Below are positions 7,825-15,601 of a stretch of DNA of 31,652 nt, piece by piece. The position numbers and the translations under genes are program-made. A model generated the notes under the pieces. It saw nothing but the letters and a program-made list of their open reading frames with translations. It did no database searches and was not told the DNA's origin. This stretch comes from a virus, in IMG/VR virus record IMGVR_UViG_3300030333_004222, positions 1 through 31,652 of that record. One strand, 5' to 3'. How positions within the stretch are numbered: the stretch's first letter is position 1; each line of letters begins with the position of its first letter.

Positions 7825-8847
7825 CTATTTAAATAAGCTATTATGGAGAAGAGCTGTCATTGCTCTTTCCCTAACTTTTACCCCCTTACCAAAGAAGTTG
7901 TAATTCATTCTACTGTTTACAATCCTATCGTCTGTTGCTCCAATGGTTTCTGAGTTTCTACCATAACCTTTGTGGTGGGAAGTAAATTCAGTAATTGCAT
8001 TGTAAGCATCCCATTTGGTTTTACCTTTATTGCCGATACCATTAGAAAATAAATCAATCATGGTATCTGCATTTGCTCTAACAGAAGAGGAAGCATACAT
8101 TTCTTGTAATTCGGTTTGGTTCCAATTTTCAAATTTTCTACCTAAAGAATGGTAAGCCAAATACTCCATTTTTTCTGAATCGAATGCTTGGTCAACCAAT
8201 GTGTTAATTTGTTCTTCCAATTGCTTTTGGTATTCAGTTTGTAATTGAAGGACTTCTTTGGCTTGATTTGCTTTTCTGATTACATTTTTTGTATGTCTAG
8301 CGTAAAACCTTTTTAAATCAGTCCTAGAATTTTTTGCCATCTCAAATGTGTTATAGCAAACAACTCGGATATCGCACCATTGCATTGTTAATGCTGAACT
8401 TCCATCATGGCTATTTTTAAGTAGTAAATATGAATCAATATTATCGCCATTATCTAGTTCTATGGATTCATTAAATTTAGCTAATAACCAAATTTTTTTA
8501 CCACCATTCAATGTACCAACCGTATCGTACCTTGCGTCACCATTGCCAACTACAGCATCAAAGAAATCAAAAGTATCTTTGTTTTGGACTGGAGTGTAAG
8601 ATTTACCAACCACCCCTAATACTTCTCCTGTGTCTTTCCTGTAGGTTGCTCTTTTGTTTGGGATTTCTACAGTATTGCCATTGATAGTGGTAGTAATTTC
8701 TGTAGTGTCTACTTCCCAACTCATGTTTGCAGATTCAATAGCTTCTGATGCAGTCATAGCGTCACCTTCAATTTTAACGCCTAGAGTATGCCAAGGGGCT
8801 TTCCCTGTATAAGCCATTCCATCTGTCTTTGTTATTCCTGCGGGCAT
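7825..8847 (-). CDS. DUF932 / TIGR03299 phage-plasmid protein
   Basis: The 340-residue product matches the DUF932 (LGT_TIGR03299) family: near the N-terminus GKAPWHTLGVKI, then a RATYRKDTGEVLGVVGKSYTPVQN block, a KIWLLAKF strand, and the LKNSHDGSSALTM...RVVCYNTF block. The family is common in phages and plasmids, usually single-copy and of unproven function. The length fits complete members. GGAGAT lies about 10 nt before the ATG, with promoter P5 upstream and terminator B downstream, making it a one-gene transcription unit. Strong dedicated signals suggest high early expression. Confidence 0.85.
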   Translation of the reverse strand: MPAGITKTDGMAYTGKAPWHTLGVKIEGDAMTASEAIESANMSWEVDTTEITTTINGNTVEIPNKRATYRKDTGEVLGVVGKSYTPVQNKDTFDFFDAVVGNGDARYDTVGTLNGGKKIWLLAKFNESIELDNGDNIDSYLLLKNSHDGSSALTMQWCDIRVVCYNTFEMAKNSRTDLKRFYARHTKNVIRKANQAKEVLQLQTEYQKQLEEQINTLVDQAFDSEKMEYLAYHSLGRKFENWNQTELQEMYASSSVRANADTMIDLFSNGIGNKGKTKWDAYNAITEFTSHHKGYGRNSETIGATDDRIVNSRMNYNFFGKGVKVRERAMTALLHNSLFK

Positions 8848-10386: not shown

Positions 10387-10791
10387 ATGGTTGATAAAAA
10401 TGTAAATAACAAAATTATTACAATTTCCGTCAAAACAGATGCAAGACTTACTAAGAATGGGTTAAAAAAAACGCATTACAGAATGATTGCAACACTTACA
10501 AAACAACATAGAGACAATGCATATTTATTGGCTAGTGTAGAAAAAGCTAACTCTAAATTAAAAACCCCTTTCAAGAAAGCTGTAATAAAAATTAAGAGTT
10601 ATTGGTGTGGAGTTCGCATGGACTATGATGGATTAGCTTGTTCGGTTGCTCCTGCAATTGATGGCATGGTTGATGCAGAAATTATTCTTGATGATAACCC
10701 TAGTATTGTTCAAGGTTATTACATGGAATATGAGCGTGTAAAAAGCAGGAAAGATGTGCGTGTTGATGTGAGCATAGAAGGTGTGCAATAA
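10387..10791 (+). CDS. RusA-like Holliday junction resolvase
   Basis: The 134-residue product has the late acidic cluster of RusA-family endonucleases: MDYD with Asp79 and Asp81, then Asp92 in APAIDGMVDAEII, and DDNPSIV with Asp102-Asp103. The length and the spacing of about 20 residues between the first pair and the last acidic group fit E. coli RusA. Usual family members have DxDN at the first site; here it is DYDG. RusA-type enzymes cut four-way junctions in recombination and packaging intermediates. It is the first gene of the rightward operon, with a probable leaderless start, and precedes the DNA-modification cassette. Catalysis is inferred. Confidence 0.65.
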   Translation: MVDKNVNNKIITISVKTDARLTKNGLKKTHYRMIATLTKQHRDNAYLLASVEKANSKLKTPFKKAVIKIKSYWCGVRMDYDGLACSVAPAIDGMVDAEIILDDNPSIVQGYYMEYERVKSRKDVRVDVSIEGVQ

Positions 10792-10821: not shown

Positions 10822-11310
10822 ATGAAAATTAAAGATAGGATAAAAGAATTAAGGCGAGTTAAAGGTTCCGATTTATTGCCTAACCCCAAAAATTGGAGGA
10901 CACACCCAGTTCACCAAGAAAATGCTATCCGTTCTGTTTTAGCTGAAATAGGATTTGCTGATGTAGCAATAGCAAGAGAAACAGAAAAAGGTTTAATGTT
11001 AATTGATGGGCACCTGAGAGCAGAGGTCGCTAGTGATACTGAAATCCCTGTGGTTATTGTTGATTTGAATGACGAAGAAGCAGATAAGGTGTTAGCAACT
11101 CTTGACCCAATTTCAACAATGGCAGAAGCTGATTCCGATATATTAGAAAACCTTATTACAGGGGCTGATTTTTCAGAAGATTTGCAAGACTTATTAAATA
11201 GTATTATTGACCGACAGGAAATCCCTGATGCACCTGACTCCTTCGATTCGTTTGATGATGATTTGGAAACTCAATATAAATGCCCAAAGTGTGGCTATGA
11301 GTGGGGATAA
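10822..11310 (+). CDS. ParB-like (N-terminal domain) protein with C-terminal Cys knuckle
   Basis: The 162-residue product opens with a ParB/sulfiredoxin-fold domain: NPKNWRTHP at 21-29, VLAEIGFADVAIAR, and the signature LIDGHLR at 60-66, followed by IPVVIVDLNDEEADKVLATLDP. It lacks the HTH of chromosomal ParB. An acidic linker (PDSFDSFDDD) leads to CPKCGYEW at the end, half of a zinc ribbon. Such proteins are common in phages, often fused or adjacent to DNA methyltransferases, and some are associated with base-modification clusters. It overlaps the next gene by 14 nt. It may locate or regulate modification, or act as a nuclease; no direct evidence separates these. Confidence 0.8.
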   Translation: MKIKDRIKELRRVKGSDLLPNPKNWRTHPVHQENAIRSVLAEIGFADVAIARETEKGLMLIDGHLRAEVASDTEIPVVIVDLNDEEADKVLATLDPISTMAEADSDILENLITGADFSEDLQDLLNSIIDRQEIPDAPDSFDSFDDDLETQYKCPKCGYEWG

Positions 11311-12127
11311 ATGGCAGTTCCGTGAAAAATTACGGAATATTTTAACTGCTGAAATTAATTCCCCCACAGTACATATTGCAACATCAGGTGGTATGGATTC
11401 ATCTGCACTAGTTGTATCTGCTATGGATATAGGGGTAACACCCATAATTACTTCCTTTACCTTAGATGACAGAGAGTCATCAGACTTTACGGCAGGGAAG
11501 AAACTTGCAAAACATTTCGATTTAGAATTTGTTCCAGTCATTATCCCAACAGATAGAGATTTTGTAGTTAAGGCTGTATTGCAGAACATGACTGATTATC
11601 ATTTACGCAAAAAAGCTGACATTGAGTGCCTATATCCAATTATATACATGATTAATTATATCCATGGACTTGGTGCTACAGATTTGATGATGGGGCATGG
11701 GGCAGATGGGCATTTTTGTTTATCTAAAAAAGGAATGATTCATTTCCGACATAATATTGAAAGCCTACAAAAATACAGGAAGGAACATTATACTCAAGGT
11801 CCATTAGGGCAAAGAAAAATTTACTATAAAATTTGCGAAAATCTTAACATTAAATATCATGACCCTTATTGGAATAAAATTATTTACGACACATTTTTTA
11901 ATTCTTCATGGGAAGAACTAAATAAACCTCGACAGAAAGAGCCTCTGCGTTCAGCATTTCCTGAACTTAATGCTTTAAAAGTTAAAAACCACAGTAATTT
12001 ACAACTTGGCGATTCAGGTATTGCCGAACTTGTTGGTAAAACTATGCAAGCTAAATTTGCGCCTAATAGTAAATCGCCAATATCTGCATATAACACAGTA
12101 GTTAGGAGAGGTCTTGTTGAAGCCTGA
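11297..12127 (+). CDS. asparagine-synthetase-like PP-loop amidotransferase without glutaminase domain
   Basis: Starting at MSGDKWQFRE, the 276-residue product has the pyrophosphatase loop TSGGMDSSAL (PP-loop at 30-36), then SFTLDDRESSDFTAGKKLAKH, MGHGADGHF at 132-140, and KEPLR at 214-218. These correspond in order to the synthetase domain of AsnB (SGG-DSS, GxGADE-F, K-PLR). The N-terminal Cys-nucleophile glutaminase of AsnB is absent. Enzymes of this group adenylate a carboxylate and replace AMP with an amine, usually ammonia. Between a ParB-like protein and a C5 DNA methyltransferase, the likely target is a carboxyl group on DNA. TTG or other upstream starts (frame opens at 11207) are less likely, as they extend far into the ParB gene. 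Confidence 0.75.
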   Translation: MSGDKWQFREKLRNILTAEINSPTVHIATSGGMDSSALVVSAMDIGVTPIITSFTLDDRESSDFTAGKKLAKHFDLEFVPVIIPTDRDFVVKAVLQNMTDYHLRKKADIECLYPIIYMINYIHGLGATDLMMGHGADGHFCLSKKGMIHFRHNIESLQKYRKEHYTQGPLGQRKIYYKICENLNIKYHDPYWNKIIYDTFFNSSWEELNKPRQKEPLRSAFPELNALKVKNHSNLQLGDSGIAELVGKTMQAKFAPNSKSPISAYNTVVRRGLVEA

Positions 12128-13250
12128 ATATAAAATCCCTTCAATGAAGGAAATTAATAATATCCCTGCAAAATTAAATGCAGTTTCCACTTTTAGTGGA
12201 GCAGGAGGTTCTTGTCTTGGGTTAAAGATGGGAGGTTTTAGAGTAAGGTGGGCGTCAGAGTTTATTCCTTCAGCACAAGAGGTGTATCGTTTAAATCATA
12301 AATCTACCCCACTTGACGAAAGAGATATTCGGCAAGTTACTGGTGACGAAATACTATCTACTGTTGGATTAGAAGTCGGAAGCCTTGATTTGTTGGAAGG
12401 GTCTCCTCCGTGTGCATCATTTTCCATGAGTGGTAAGCGAGATAAGAATTGGGGGCGAGTTGTTAAGTATTCCGAGACAAAACAAAGAGTAGACGATTTG
12501 TTTTATGAATTTGTACGATTAATAAAAGAATTACAACCAAAAGTTTTTATTGCTGAAAATGTTAGTGGATTAATTAGAGGAACAGCAAAAGGTTATTTTA
12601 AAGAAATATTTAAAGCAATGAAGGAATGTGGCTATGAGGTTGAAGCTCAATTATTAAATGCTCAATGGCTTGGTGTTCCACAATCTCGTCAGCGTATTTT
12701 TTTTCAAGGCGTACGGAAAGACCTTGGCAAAAAGCCTGTATTTCCAAAGCCTTTTGAATACTGCTATACGCTAAAAGAAGTTTTGCCATATGCTAAAAAA
12801 GTAATGGTTAGAAAGGATATGTGGAGAAATGCAGACGCTACCCCTCCAACTGTTTTGGCAAGTGGGGCAACTGTAACTGAGACTGCCCAAATGGGAGGAG
12901 CAGGGATTATAGAGGTGGATTTTCATAAGTATGCAATTGCTAAAGAATGGAAAAAATTAAAACAAGGAACTGCGTCACCTAAAATGTTTAATTTAAGGCG
13001 ACCTCATTTGGAAAAACCTTCCCCAACAATCTTGGCATCATGTGGAGACTTTGGAGCGTCAGGACTTGTTCACCCTACTGAGTTCAGAAAATTTACAATT
13101 GAAGAATTAAAAATAATACAATCATTCCCTGAGGATTTTAAGTTAACAGGCAAGTTTGCCCAACAATGGGAGCGAATAGGTAGAAGTGTTCCCCCATTAA
13201 TGATGCGTGAAATAGCAAAAACAATTGCAGAGGAGGTTTTGAATGATTAG
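12114..13250 (+). CDS. cytosine-C5 DNA methyltransferase with Arg in motif X, predicted carboxymethyltransferase
   Basis: The 378-residue product has all main C5-MTase motifs: I (FSGAGGSCLGL, 27-37), IV with catalytic Cys100 in GSPPCASFS, VI (ENV, 148-150), VIII (QSRQR, 190-194), a short target-recognition region of about 110 residues, IX (FTIEELKIIQSFPEDF), and X. Motif X reads GRSVPP (356-361) where the family has GN(S/A)VPP, so Arg357 replaces the Asn that lines the SAM methyl pocket. With a CmoA-like gene next door, this suggests use of carboxy-SAM. The start is TTG at 12114 (or 12117) after AGGAGAGG; it overlaps the upstream gene by 14 nt and the next by 8 nt. MTase fold is sure; the altered substrate is inferred. 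Confidence 0.9.
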   Translation: MLKPEYKIPSMKEINNIPAKLNAVSTFSGAGGSCLGLKMGGFRVRWASEFIPSAQEVYRLNHKSTPLDERDIRQVTGDEILSTVGLEVGSLDLLEGSPPCASFSMSGKRDKNWGRVVKYSETKQRVDDLFYEFVRLIKELQPKVFIAENVSGLIRGTAKGYFKEIFKAMKECGYEVEAQLLNAQWLGVPQSRQRIFFQGVRKDLGKKPVFPKPFEYCYTLKEVLPYAKKVMVRKDMWRNADATPPTVLASGATVTETAQMGGAGIIEVDFHKYAIAKEWKKLKQGTASPKMFNLRRPHLEKPSPTILASCGDFGASGLVHPTEFRKFTIEELKIIQSFPEDFKLTGKFAQQWERIGRSVPPLMMREIAKTIAEEVLND

Positions 13251-13998
13251 TACAGATACAGGGTATACGGCAGATAGGTGGGAATTTGATAAAGAGGTTA
13301 CTAGAGTATTTGATGATATGTTAAAAAGAAGCATTCCAAATTACGAGGGTATGCGAGACATTACAACAAGATTAATTAGCAAAACTATCCCTCGTGTTAA
13401 TGGGAGTATGCTTGACATTGGCTCATCTCAAGGGGAGACAATTGCAAGAATCTTAGAGCAAGGAAACTTTACTGATTTAAATGTGTTGGGCTATGAAATT
13501 AGTGAACCAATGTTGCAATTTAGTGAAAACAGATTTGCAAATGTACCGAATGTTAATTTTGAATCTGCTGACTTACGGCATGGGCTTCCAAAGGACTCGA
13601 TTGAATATTCAGGAGTTTCCTATTCGTCTAATGTTATAAATGCCTTTGATGTTGTTACCAGTATATTAACAATAATGTTTATTCCTATGGAACATAGACC
13701 ACATTTATTAGCAGATATATTTAATGCCTTAAAACCCGAAGGCAAATTGTTTTTAGTTGAAAAAATTATTGGAGGCAATTATGAATCTGATAATTTGTAT
13801 GTAGAAGCATATTATGACATGAAAAAGGAACATGGCTATTCAGAAGATGATGTGCAACGGAAGCGATTAGCATTGGAAGGCGTTTTGGTTCCTATGACTG
13901 CCAAGGCAAATGAGCAAATGGTTATAGATGCAGGGTTTAAAAGTATTGAGACTATTTGGGCATGGGGAAATTTTAGAGGTTGGATAGCAACAAAATGA
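13243..13998 (+). CDS. CmoA-like carboxy-SAM synthase
   Basis: The 251-residue product is a class I SAM-binding protein (LDIGSSQGE, 57-65) that resembles E. coli CmoA over its length, not just in motif I: FDKEVTRVFDDMLKRSIPNY (15-34), a late LKPEGKLFLVEK strand, GYSEDDVQRKRLALEGVL (198-215), and AGFKSIE...NFRGWIATK at the end. CmoA converts SAM and prephenate to carboxy-SAM for tRNA wobble uridine. Arg208 in KRLALE aligns with CmoA Arg199, which, from memory, contacts the cxSAM carboxylate. No tRNA-acting CmoB partner is present; the neighbour is a DNA C5 methyltransferase. GAGGAGG lies about 6 nt before the ATG. Confidence 0.8.
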   Translation: MISTDTGYTADRWEFDKEVTRVFDDMLKRSIPNYEGMRDITTRLISKTIPRVNGSMLDIGSSQGETIARILEQGNFTDLNVLGYEISEPMLQFSENRFANVPNVNFESADLRHGLPKDSIEYSGVSYSSNVINAFDVVTSILTIMFIPMEHRPHLLADIFNALKPEGKLFLVEKIIGGNYESDNLYVEAYYDMKKEHGYSEDDVQRKRLALEGVLVPMTAKANEQMVIDAGFKSIETIWAWGNFRGWIATK

Positions 13999-14007
13999 GA
14001 GTAGTTA

Positions 14008-14490
14008 ATGCCTACCAGTAAAGCTATGCAAGTTAATGCCCAACAAAGAAGGTACAGGGTTTTACAAGCTGTACTTGCAGGTGCATCAGAAAGGCAAATC
14101 GCAGAACAAGAGGGTGTTGCTCGTAGCCTTATAAATCGAGATAAAAAGAAAGTATTGTCTGATTTAGCAAAAGAGCATATAGGGTTAGCTGATGAAGTCC
14201 GTTCTGTTCAAATGGAACGATATAACCAAATTATGTTGAGGTGGTGGCAAAGAGCCATGTCAGGGGATAAAGAAGCGACAGATGTTATATTAAGAGTAAT
14301 GAAGGAAATCAATGTAATTAACGGAGTTATTCCTGACAAGCCATTAATAAGTTTCAATCAATTAAATGTAGGAACTGAATTTATAACTTTCAATATTGAG
14401 GCAAATGACGACACTACAGAAGCCAACAATGACATATCGGAGACCGAAGTTATATCCGAAACAAGAACAGGCTATATTCTCGAACAATAG
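14008..14490 (+). CDS. terS: terminase small subunit (TerS)
   Basis: The 160-residue product has an N-terminal helix-turn-helix (VLAGASERQIAEQEGVARSLINRDKK, about 22-47), a helical oligomerisation middle (VRSVQMERYNQIMLRWWQRAM), and a polar tail. This is the usual layout of small terminases, which recognise the phage packaging site and stimulate the large subunit. Its 3' part overlaps the large terminase frame by more than 80 nt. It follows the CmoA-like gene by 9 nt with no terminator, so modification and packaging genes share a transcript. The packaging site itself is not identifiable by eye. Confidence 0.8.
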   Translation: MPTSKAMQVNAQQRRYRVLQAVLAGASERQIAEQEGVARSLINRDKKKVLSDLAKEHIGLADEVRSVQMERYNQIMLRWWQRAMSGDKEATDVILRVMKEINVINGVIPDKPLISFNQLNVGTEFITFNIEANDDTTEANNDISETEVISETRTGYILEQ

Positions 14491-15601
14491 ATATGCTGTT
14501 ATTGAAGGGTCTACCAAATCAGGTAAAACAGTTGCCTGTTTGACTTGGTTACTAGAACAAGCAATTTTAGGTAAAGACGGTAATTCGTTTTGGTGGGTTG
14601 CCCCAGTTTACGGACAAGCAAAAATGGCGTTTCGTAGAATGAAACGTGGGCTACCTAAGAACATTTATACTAATAACGAATCCGAATTAACTATTACATT
14701 ACCTAATGGAGCAATTATTGCTTTTAAGTCAGGAGAAAAAGCAGACAATCTTTACGGAGATGATGTTTATGGAGCTGTTATTGATGAGGCAACAAGAGTT
14801 AGAGAAGAGTCTTGGCACGCAATCCGTTCAACATTAACAGCAACTAGAGGTGCTGTTCGTATTATTGGAAACGTAAAAGGTAGAAGAAATTGGGCATATA
14901 GATTAGCTAGGTTTGCAGAAAGCGGAGAACCTAATTGGCATTATGCAAAACTAACTGCTTATGATGCTGTAGATGCAGGGGTTTTAGAAGCTGATGAAGT
15001 AGAACAAGCTAAAAGACAATTGCCTGACCATGTTTTTCAGGAATTATATTTAGCAGAACCTAGTGATGATGGAGGGAACCCTTTTAATTTAACCAAAATT
15101 CATGAAAATATTAAAACAGTTTCCGATACAGAACCTGTTGTTTATGGAATTGACTTGGCTAAATCAGTAGACTGGACTGTTGCAATAGGATTAGATGCTA
15201 ACGGAAATGTTTGCAGTTATGACAGATTCCAAATGTCATGGGAGGAAACTTGCGTTAGGTTAAGTAGGTTAGTGGGGTATACTTCTGCTATAGTGGATTC
15301 GACAGGAGTTGGCGACCCAATAGTAGAAAGGTTACAGCGAGACTTGCCTAATGTAGAGGGGTTCCACTTTTCGTCTTCTAGCAAACAAAAATTAATGGAA
15401 GGATTAGCTATGGCTATTCAAACAAATGCAATAAGTTATCCTGACAATGAAATTGTCAATGAATTAGATGTTTTTACTTATGAATATACTAGGACTGGAG
15501 TTAGATATACTGCTCCTGACGGATTACATGATGACTGTGTAATGGCTTTAGGGTTGGCAGTTCACGCATTAACTAACAGTAGAGGATTAGGAGTTTGGTA
15601 A
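14405..15601 (+). CDS. terL: terminase large subunit (TerL)
   Basis: The product (about 398 aa from the ATG at 14405) has a Walker A-type loop GSTKSGKT near the N-terminus, Walker B in YGAVIDEATR, and the RNase H-like nuclease: GIDLAKSVDWT, AIVDSTGVGD, and HDDCVMALGLA near the end. It packages concatemeric DNA into proheads. The start is uncertain: TTG 14396, ATG 14405 and ATG 14429 are in frame; GAGG lies close before 14405. It overlaps terS by 86 nt and ends in TAATG shared with the next small gene. Compared with many TerL proteins, about 400 residues is on the short side but complete. Confidence 0.92.
   Translation: MTTLQKPTMTYRRPKLYPKQEQAIFSNNRYAVIEGSTKSGKTVACLTWLLEQAILGKDGNSFWWVAPVYGQAKMAFRRMKRGLPKNIYTNNESELTITLPNGAIIAFKSGEKADNLYGDDVYGAVIDEATRVREESWHAIRSTLTATRGAVRIIGNVKGRRNWAYRLARFAESGEPNWHYAKLTAYDAVDAGVLEADEVEQAKRQLPDHVFQELYLAEPSDDGGNPFNLTKIHENIKTVSDTEPVVYGIDLAKSVDWTVAIGLDANGNVCSYDRFQMSWEETCVRLSRLVGYTSAIVDSTGVGDPIVERLQRDLPNVEGFHFSSSSKQKLMEGLAMAIQTNAISYPDNEIVNELDVFTYEYTRTGVRYTAPDGLHDDCVMALGLAVHALTNSRGLGVW

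Follow-up and report, generated by a model that had tools for sequence, protein, structure and literature searches.

The IMG/VR virus record IMGVR_UViG_3300030333_004222, analyzed here over its 31,652 bases (the window), raises the question of what is made by four overlapping genes encoding a ParB-like protein, an AsnB-like ligase, a cytosine C5-transferase, and a CmoA-like protein. We propose that this cassette is probably a DNA hypermodification operon of the CmoA-CmoX-CmoY type that also encodes a ParB-like partner, and is thus a well-supported further example of a published system, not a new kind. The genes stand in the order ParB-ligase-transferase-CmoA at 10822-13998 on the + strand, with all frames intact and with overlaps of 14, 11, and 8 nucleotides. 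A sequence-only reading had placed a four-gene cassette here, just before terS/terL, with overlaps of 8-14 nucleotides; the measured layout agrees, and family matches confirm the gene identities it assigned:

10822-11310, + strand: ParB-like partner protein, 162 amino acids, with a C-terminal CPxC half zinc ribbon (phrog_620, phrog_498, and 6sdk matches)
11297-12127, + strand: predicted CmoY-like, adenosine monophosphate-forming amide ligase, 276 amino acids, AsnB synthetase domain only (phrog_26038, 4.3e-40)
12104-12108, + strand: AGGAG ribosome-binding site of the transferase, within the ligase gene (direct reading)
12117-13250, + strand: predicted CmoX-like DNA cytosine C5-carboxymethyltransferase, 377 amino acids, TTG start (8yf3, E 3.5e-66)
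13243-13998, + strand: predicted CmoA-like carboxy-S-adenosylmethionine synthase, 251 amino acids (NCBIfam TIGR00740, 1.3e-35)

The ligase start was taken as the ATG at 11297, the longer open reading frame (ORF) from a TTG at 11207 being unnecessary. The transferase likely starts at the TTG at 12117, preceded by AGGAG at 12104, and the resulting N-terminus, MKPEYKIPSM, agrees with that of the family; an alternative start lies at 12114, from which transferase residues are numbered here.

The pathway has been proven in Synechococcus phage S-B43, where CmoA makes carboxy-S-adenosylmethionine (cxSAM), SpCmoX makes 5-carboxymethylcytosine (5cxmC) at GC, and SpCmoY, an asparagine-synthetase homolog, joins glycine to 5cxmC, the glycine amide base being detected in phage DNA (Yang et al., December 2025; PMC12783734). 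The same study gathered 5,615 CmoX candidates from IMG/VR and other collections, many of them beside CmoA, ligase, and ParBc protein genes (PMC12783734). By analogy, the window CmoA would convert S-adenosylmethionine and prephenate to cxSAM, and CmoX would act on a flipped-out cytosine, with Cys100 attacking C6 and the carboxymethyl group moving to C5 while R357 holds the cofactor carboxylate. The AsnB-type ligase would then activate the new carboxylate and couple it to a small amine, for which an amino acid such as glycine is the likeliest candidate; the probable binding partners of the ParB-like protein are DNA and the transferase. Gene identities, diagnostic residues, ligase fold, and co-occurrence were read directly from the data, and every catalytic step is predicted by homology; the amine, the modified sequence motif, and the function of the ParB-like protein are the least certain parts.

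The transferase belongs to the C5 DNA_methylase family (6.9e-60), and its best match among all solved structures is SpCmoX itself, 8yf3, followed at a distance by M.HaeIII (3.1e-29). Its SPPC motif at residues 97-100 is invariant in all 82 alignment rows, and R357, an Arg in 78 of the 82, aligns with R350 of SpCmoX (8yf3), the residue that binds the cxSAM carboxylate. A basic residue in the cofactor pocket is shared with engineered M.MpeI N374K, a C5-methyltransferase described as enabled by this change to use cxSAM (PMC12783734); that enzyme is engineered and targets CG, whereas the window enzyme is natural. With the CmoX alignment as query, 80 viral loci and 80 loci from bacterial and archaeal genomes were gathered, and neighbors were counted within the flanks fetched for each locus; single-protein queries with the ligase or CmoA retrieved no related loci. 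In the viral set, CmoA lies beside 72 of the 76 transferases with Arg at this position and none of the four with Asn. The genome set behaves alike (Arg, 37/41; Asn, 0/12; Met, 0/23), with four further rows unreadable at the position, and several of the Arg loci that have no CmoA end close to the transferase gene. Pooled over 156 loci, CmoA accompanies 109 of 117 transferases with Arg and 0 of 39 without (Fisher 3.4e-29, a value inflated by kinship). The residue changes four times on the transferase tree, with CmoA tracking about 3.7 of these changes, too small a number for significance to be reachable. The association is one-directional, has no counter-case among non-Arg loci, and has a structural reason.

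These data bear on whether the transferase could be an ordinary C5-methyltransferase, with CmoA serving elsewhere, for example in transfer RNA (tRNA) modification. C5-methyltransferases are common in phages, and Escherichia coli CmoA does act in tRNA modification. This alternative is nevertheless very improbable, given the presence of R357, the tracking of Arg with CmoA over the 156 loci, and a nearest structure whose enzyme, SpCmoX, accepted cxSAM only (PMC12783734). We are highly confident in predicting that the window transferase performs cxSAM-dependent C5-carboxymethylation of DNA.

The best PDB matches of the window CmoA are the CmoA structures 1im8 and 4gek. In E. coli CmoA the cofactor is bound by Tyr39, Asp62, Gly64, and Arg199, the last forming a salt bridge with the cxSAM carboxylate (PMC3663124), and the window protein keeps the equivalents Y34, D58, G60, and R208. 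Arg199 was considered as a defining residue of phage CmoAs and was ruled out, as Glu occupies the position in 44 of 72, including the active SpCmoA; R208 is therefore evidence for cxSAM synthesis but no proof of it. The Glu-bearing phage CmoAs, SpCmoA included, usually have an Arg where E. coli CmoA has Gln231, and this pattern suggests another way in which the cxSAM carboxylate may be held.

The ligase matches the Asn_synthase family (6.8e-6) and is 32% identical to SpCmoY by tblastn (E 3e-28), and about 30% identical in alignments. A phmmer search of PDB sequences returned no match to it, and its fold was therefore used. An AlphaFold2 model (pLDDT, the predicted local distance difference test, 90.5) matched asparagine synthetase 8sue best (Z 21.8 over 260 residues) and corresponds over its full length to the synthetase portion of asparagine synthetase and to that of beta-lactam synthetase. 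All 276 residues align to residues 226-526 of human ASNS, and the glutaminase is absent, as the sequence-only reading had stated. After the pyrophosphatase (PP) loop the window ligase reads GHGADG where glutaminase-bearing phage relatives read GEGSDE or GEAADE; the GExxDE motif of AsnB is thus absent, a loss shared with the glycine-using SpCmoY. Short ligases mostly carry G-x-G-A-D, extended to G-x-G-A-D-G in both the window protein and SpCmoY, and full forms keep G-E-x-x-D-E. The window ligase also has K106, E110, C111, K144, R161, K214, H232, and Q236 in common with SpCmoY. A KxxxE motif was seen by hhalign in both short and glutaminase-bearing phage ligases (K106/E110, KADIE, in the window; K305/E309, KAQVE, in locus L003); it may be a signature of ligases that recognize 5cxmC as their substrate.

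Formation of a further amide by this ligase is very likely, which leaves the identity of the amine. The sequence-only reading proposed a route from cxSAM through 5cxmC and carboxylate activation to 5-carbamoylmethylcytosine or another amide. The former, which would form if the ligase used free ammonia, would be the cytosine parallel of the phage Mu Mom base, carbamoylmethyl-adenine. Mu Mom likewise hypermodifies phage DNA to an amide end product; it differs in its adenine target and enzyme class, and a family scan found no Mom-like protein among the cassette genes. The route as far as carboxylate activation is supported by the S-B43 homologs, R357, and CmoA. Its last step is less likely for the window: full AsnB proteins with glutaminase occupy the same position in 14 of the 80 viral loci, and some members of the family probably amidate 5cxmC with ammonia, but the window ligase has neither a glutaminase nor either GExxDE glutamate, and SpCmoY is alike. 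One such variant is found in Streptomyces phage TurkishDelight (NC_073473), which shares ParB, CmoX, and CmoA with the window and has the closest annotated phage homolog of its transferase (48% identical). Its ligase differs in being a full AsnB with glutaminase, and ammonia is therefore its expected amine. The ammonia route is expected to belong to such separate variants, and for the window ligase we consider it quite unlikely. The combined loss of the glutaminase and of GExxDE favors an amino acid over ammonia, with glycine as our best guess and not a result.

Another amine, such as a polyamine, ethanolamine, or another metabolite, would yield an undescribed base. Six viral ligases, that of the window among them, form a clade with 100/100 support that leaves out SpCmoY, and ligase clusters with differing active-site residues have been reported (PMC12783734). 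All family-conserved residues are kept, however, including basic ones able to hold the carboxylate of an amino acid, and we give this alternative little credence. A CmoY-like ligase was also observed in Salmonella phage Sen-NF (L009, 3923-5446), beside a gene annotated as an oxygenase; no CmoA or CmoX is annotated in the stretch seen, and this ligase may decorate a different DNA handle.

The sequence-only reading suggested searching phage genomes for co-occurrence of these genes, and the search bore it out: CmoA was found in 72/80 and ParB in 75/80 related viral loci, with a short ligase in 15/80, a glutaminase-bearing one in 14/80, and none in view in 51/80. In four of the five ParB-less loci the sequence stops no more than about 450 bases from where the transferase begins, and the association of the cassette genes is far beyond chance. 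The ligase-free loci raise the possibility that the window pathway stops at 5cxmC, its ligase being weak, redundant, or decaying. Moraxella phage Mcat8 (KR093632) resembles the window in placing ParB-CmoX-CmoA directly ahead of terS/terL and differs in having no ligase between them. Since 51 of the 80 loci show no ligase, 5cxmC can probably serve by itself as the final product. An inspection by eye, with no family search, of the ligase-free loci found no recurrent new decorating enzyme between CmoX and CmoA, where the ORFs are mostly terS/terL or of low complexity. In the window itself the ligase gene has an uninterrupted frame that overlaps its neighbors and encodes every family-conserved residue, and an end at 5cxmC is accordingly highly unlikely there. 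Among the genome loci, the Verrucomicrobiota metagenome-assembled genomes USDE_maxbin.037, FR_27, and H5_VER1 each hold several ParB-CmoX-CmoA copies, mostly on separate contigs (L091-L093, L095, L097-L103, L105, L108-L110), which would represent either multiple prophages in each genome or some other element.

The fourth gene of the cassette is the one whose partnership was remarked upon by Yang et al., who left the role of ParB unexplained (PMC12783734). The window protein matches phrog_620 (6e-11) and phrog_498, the ParB domain of ParB-methyltransferase fusions (2.9e-14), and its model matches the cytidine diphosphate-bound ParB 6sdk (E 9e-7), with 7ng0 and 7bnr also among the top matches; Pfam ParBc gave no match to it. 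Its tail has the consensus DExIETEHxCPKCGYEWSG, in which F141, C154, P155, and C157 are invariant among 47 aligned relatives; with two tail cysteines in each chain, a pair of chains could together form one zinc site. A second ParB of TurkishDelight bears the same CPxC tail, as do most ParB neighbors of the Asn and Met transferases, which have no CmoA. ParB-like neighbors of plain C5-methyltransferases were observed in diverse bacterial genomes (L118, L129-L131, L143, L145, L152, L159-L161, L163-L165), and phrog_498 contains ParB domains fused to other phage methyltransferases. Since ParB also stands beside plain C5-methyltransferases, it probably does not serve carboxymethylation alone, and we infer that it assists transferases more generally, for example in DNA loading or site choice. 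This company, together with the invariant CPxC tail, is what is new here. A bolder combined proposal, in which the CPxC ParB is a dedicated loading or site-choice subunit across the methyl- and carboxymethyltransferase lineage and the window ligase clade also uses a non-glycine amine to make a new base, is unlikely.

How closely does the cassette follow S-B43? The same three enzymes are encoded in one cluster, with SPPC, the cxSAM-binding Arg, and a glutaminase-free ligase, and ParB partners are reported for many homologs of the S-B43 system. S-B43 differs in its gene order (A-Y-X with no ParB annotated alongside, against ParB-Y-X-A) and in the DNA-recognition region of its CmoX, so the GC motif is not transferable to the window enzyme. 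Several observations weigh against reading the window as such an operon. The window CmoA scores under the 193-bit TIGR00740 equivalog cut-off, and the ligase, at ~30% identity to SpCmoY and in its own clade, may use a different amine. In addition, several restriction sites are avoided in the window, GC-containing ones included, which misfits a broad and complete GC modification.

This avoidance is pronounced. Counts in the window, with expected values in brackets, are 0 for GATC (68), GGCC (38), CCNGG (47), CCGG (18), and AAGCTT (14), 4 for GCNGC (51), and 3 for GCGC (18). Synonymous-codon shuffling of 20.5 kb of coding sequence always left at least 42 GATC, 8 GGCC, and 7 CCGG sites, and none of each was observed. 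A near relative (L011) has no GATC and almost no CCGG and CCNGG, and several cassette-bearing relatives avoid site sets of their own, one of them (L031) being entirely without GATC, CCGG, CGCG, GCGC, and AGCT. The lineage of the window phage is under strong restriction pressure, answered partly by site loss. At the avoided sites, then, no easing of restriction pressure by the modification is visible. Pooled palindrome statistics over the cassette-bearing phages, with no cassette-free phages as controls, gave no relief of avoidance in the ligase-bearing ones. The sequence-only reading had suggested defense against restriction, which is plausible in that 5cxmC blocked HhaI in vitro (PMC12783734), but GCGC, GGCC, CCNGG, and GATC are still strongly avoided. 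As SpCmoX targets GC and its product blocks HhaI, yet GGCC and GCGC are avoided, the window enzyme would have another motif, modify incompletely, or have been acquired recently.

The surroundings of the cassette include the following genes, which lie outside the pathway:

10387-10791, + strand: RusA-like Holliday junction resolvase, upstream of the cassette (phrog_1682, 8.3e-6)
14008-14490, + strand: terS-like gene directly 3' of the cassette (HTH_23, 0.0017; precedes terL)
14396-15601, + strand: terL, large terminase (Terminase_6N, 1.4e-13)

A DUF932/TIGR03299 phage-plasmid protein is encoded at 7825-8847 on the - strand (6e-61). No tRNA was found in the window, and a host was not assignable, the terL, capsid, and transferase matches all being too distant.

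Together, the window cassette provides independent support for the 2025 finding that phages put a carboxylate handle on cytosine and then decorate it. To that finding we add a residue-to-neighbor test, in which Arg goes with CmoA and Asn or Met goes without, and the presence of ParB beside plain C5-methyltransferases, a reason to look for a ParB function common to transferases at large. Both the amines chosen by the other ligase clades and the task of the ParB partner thereby become testable.

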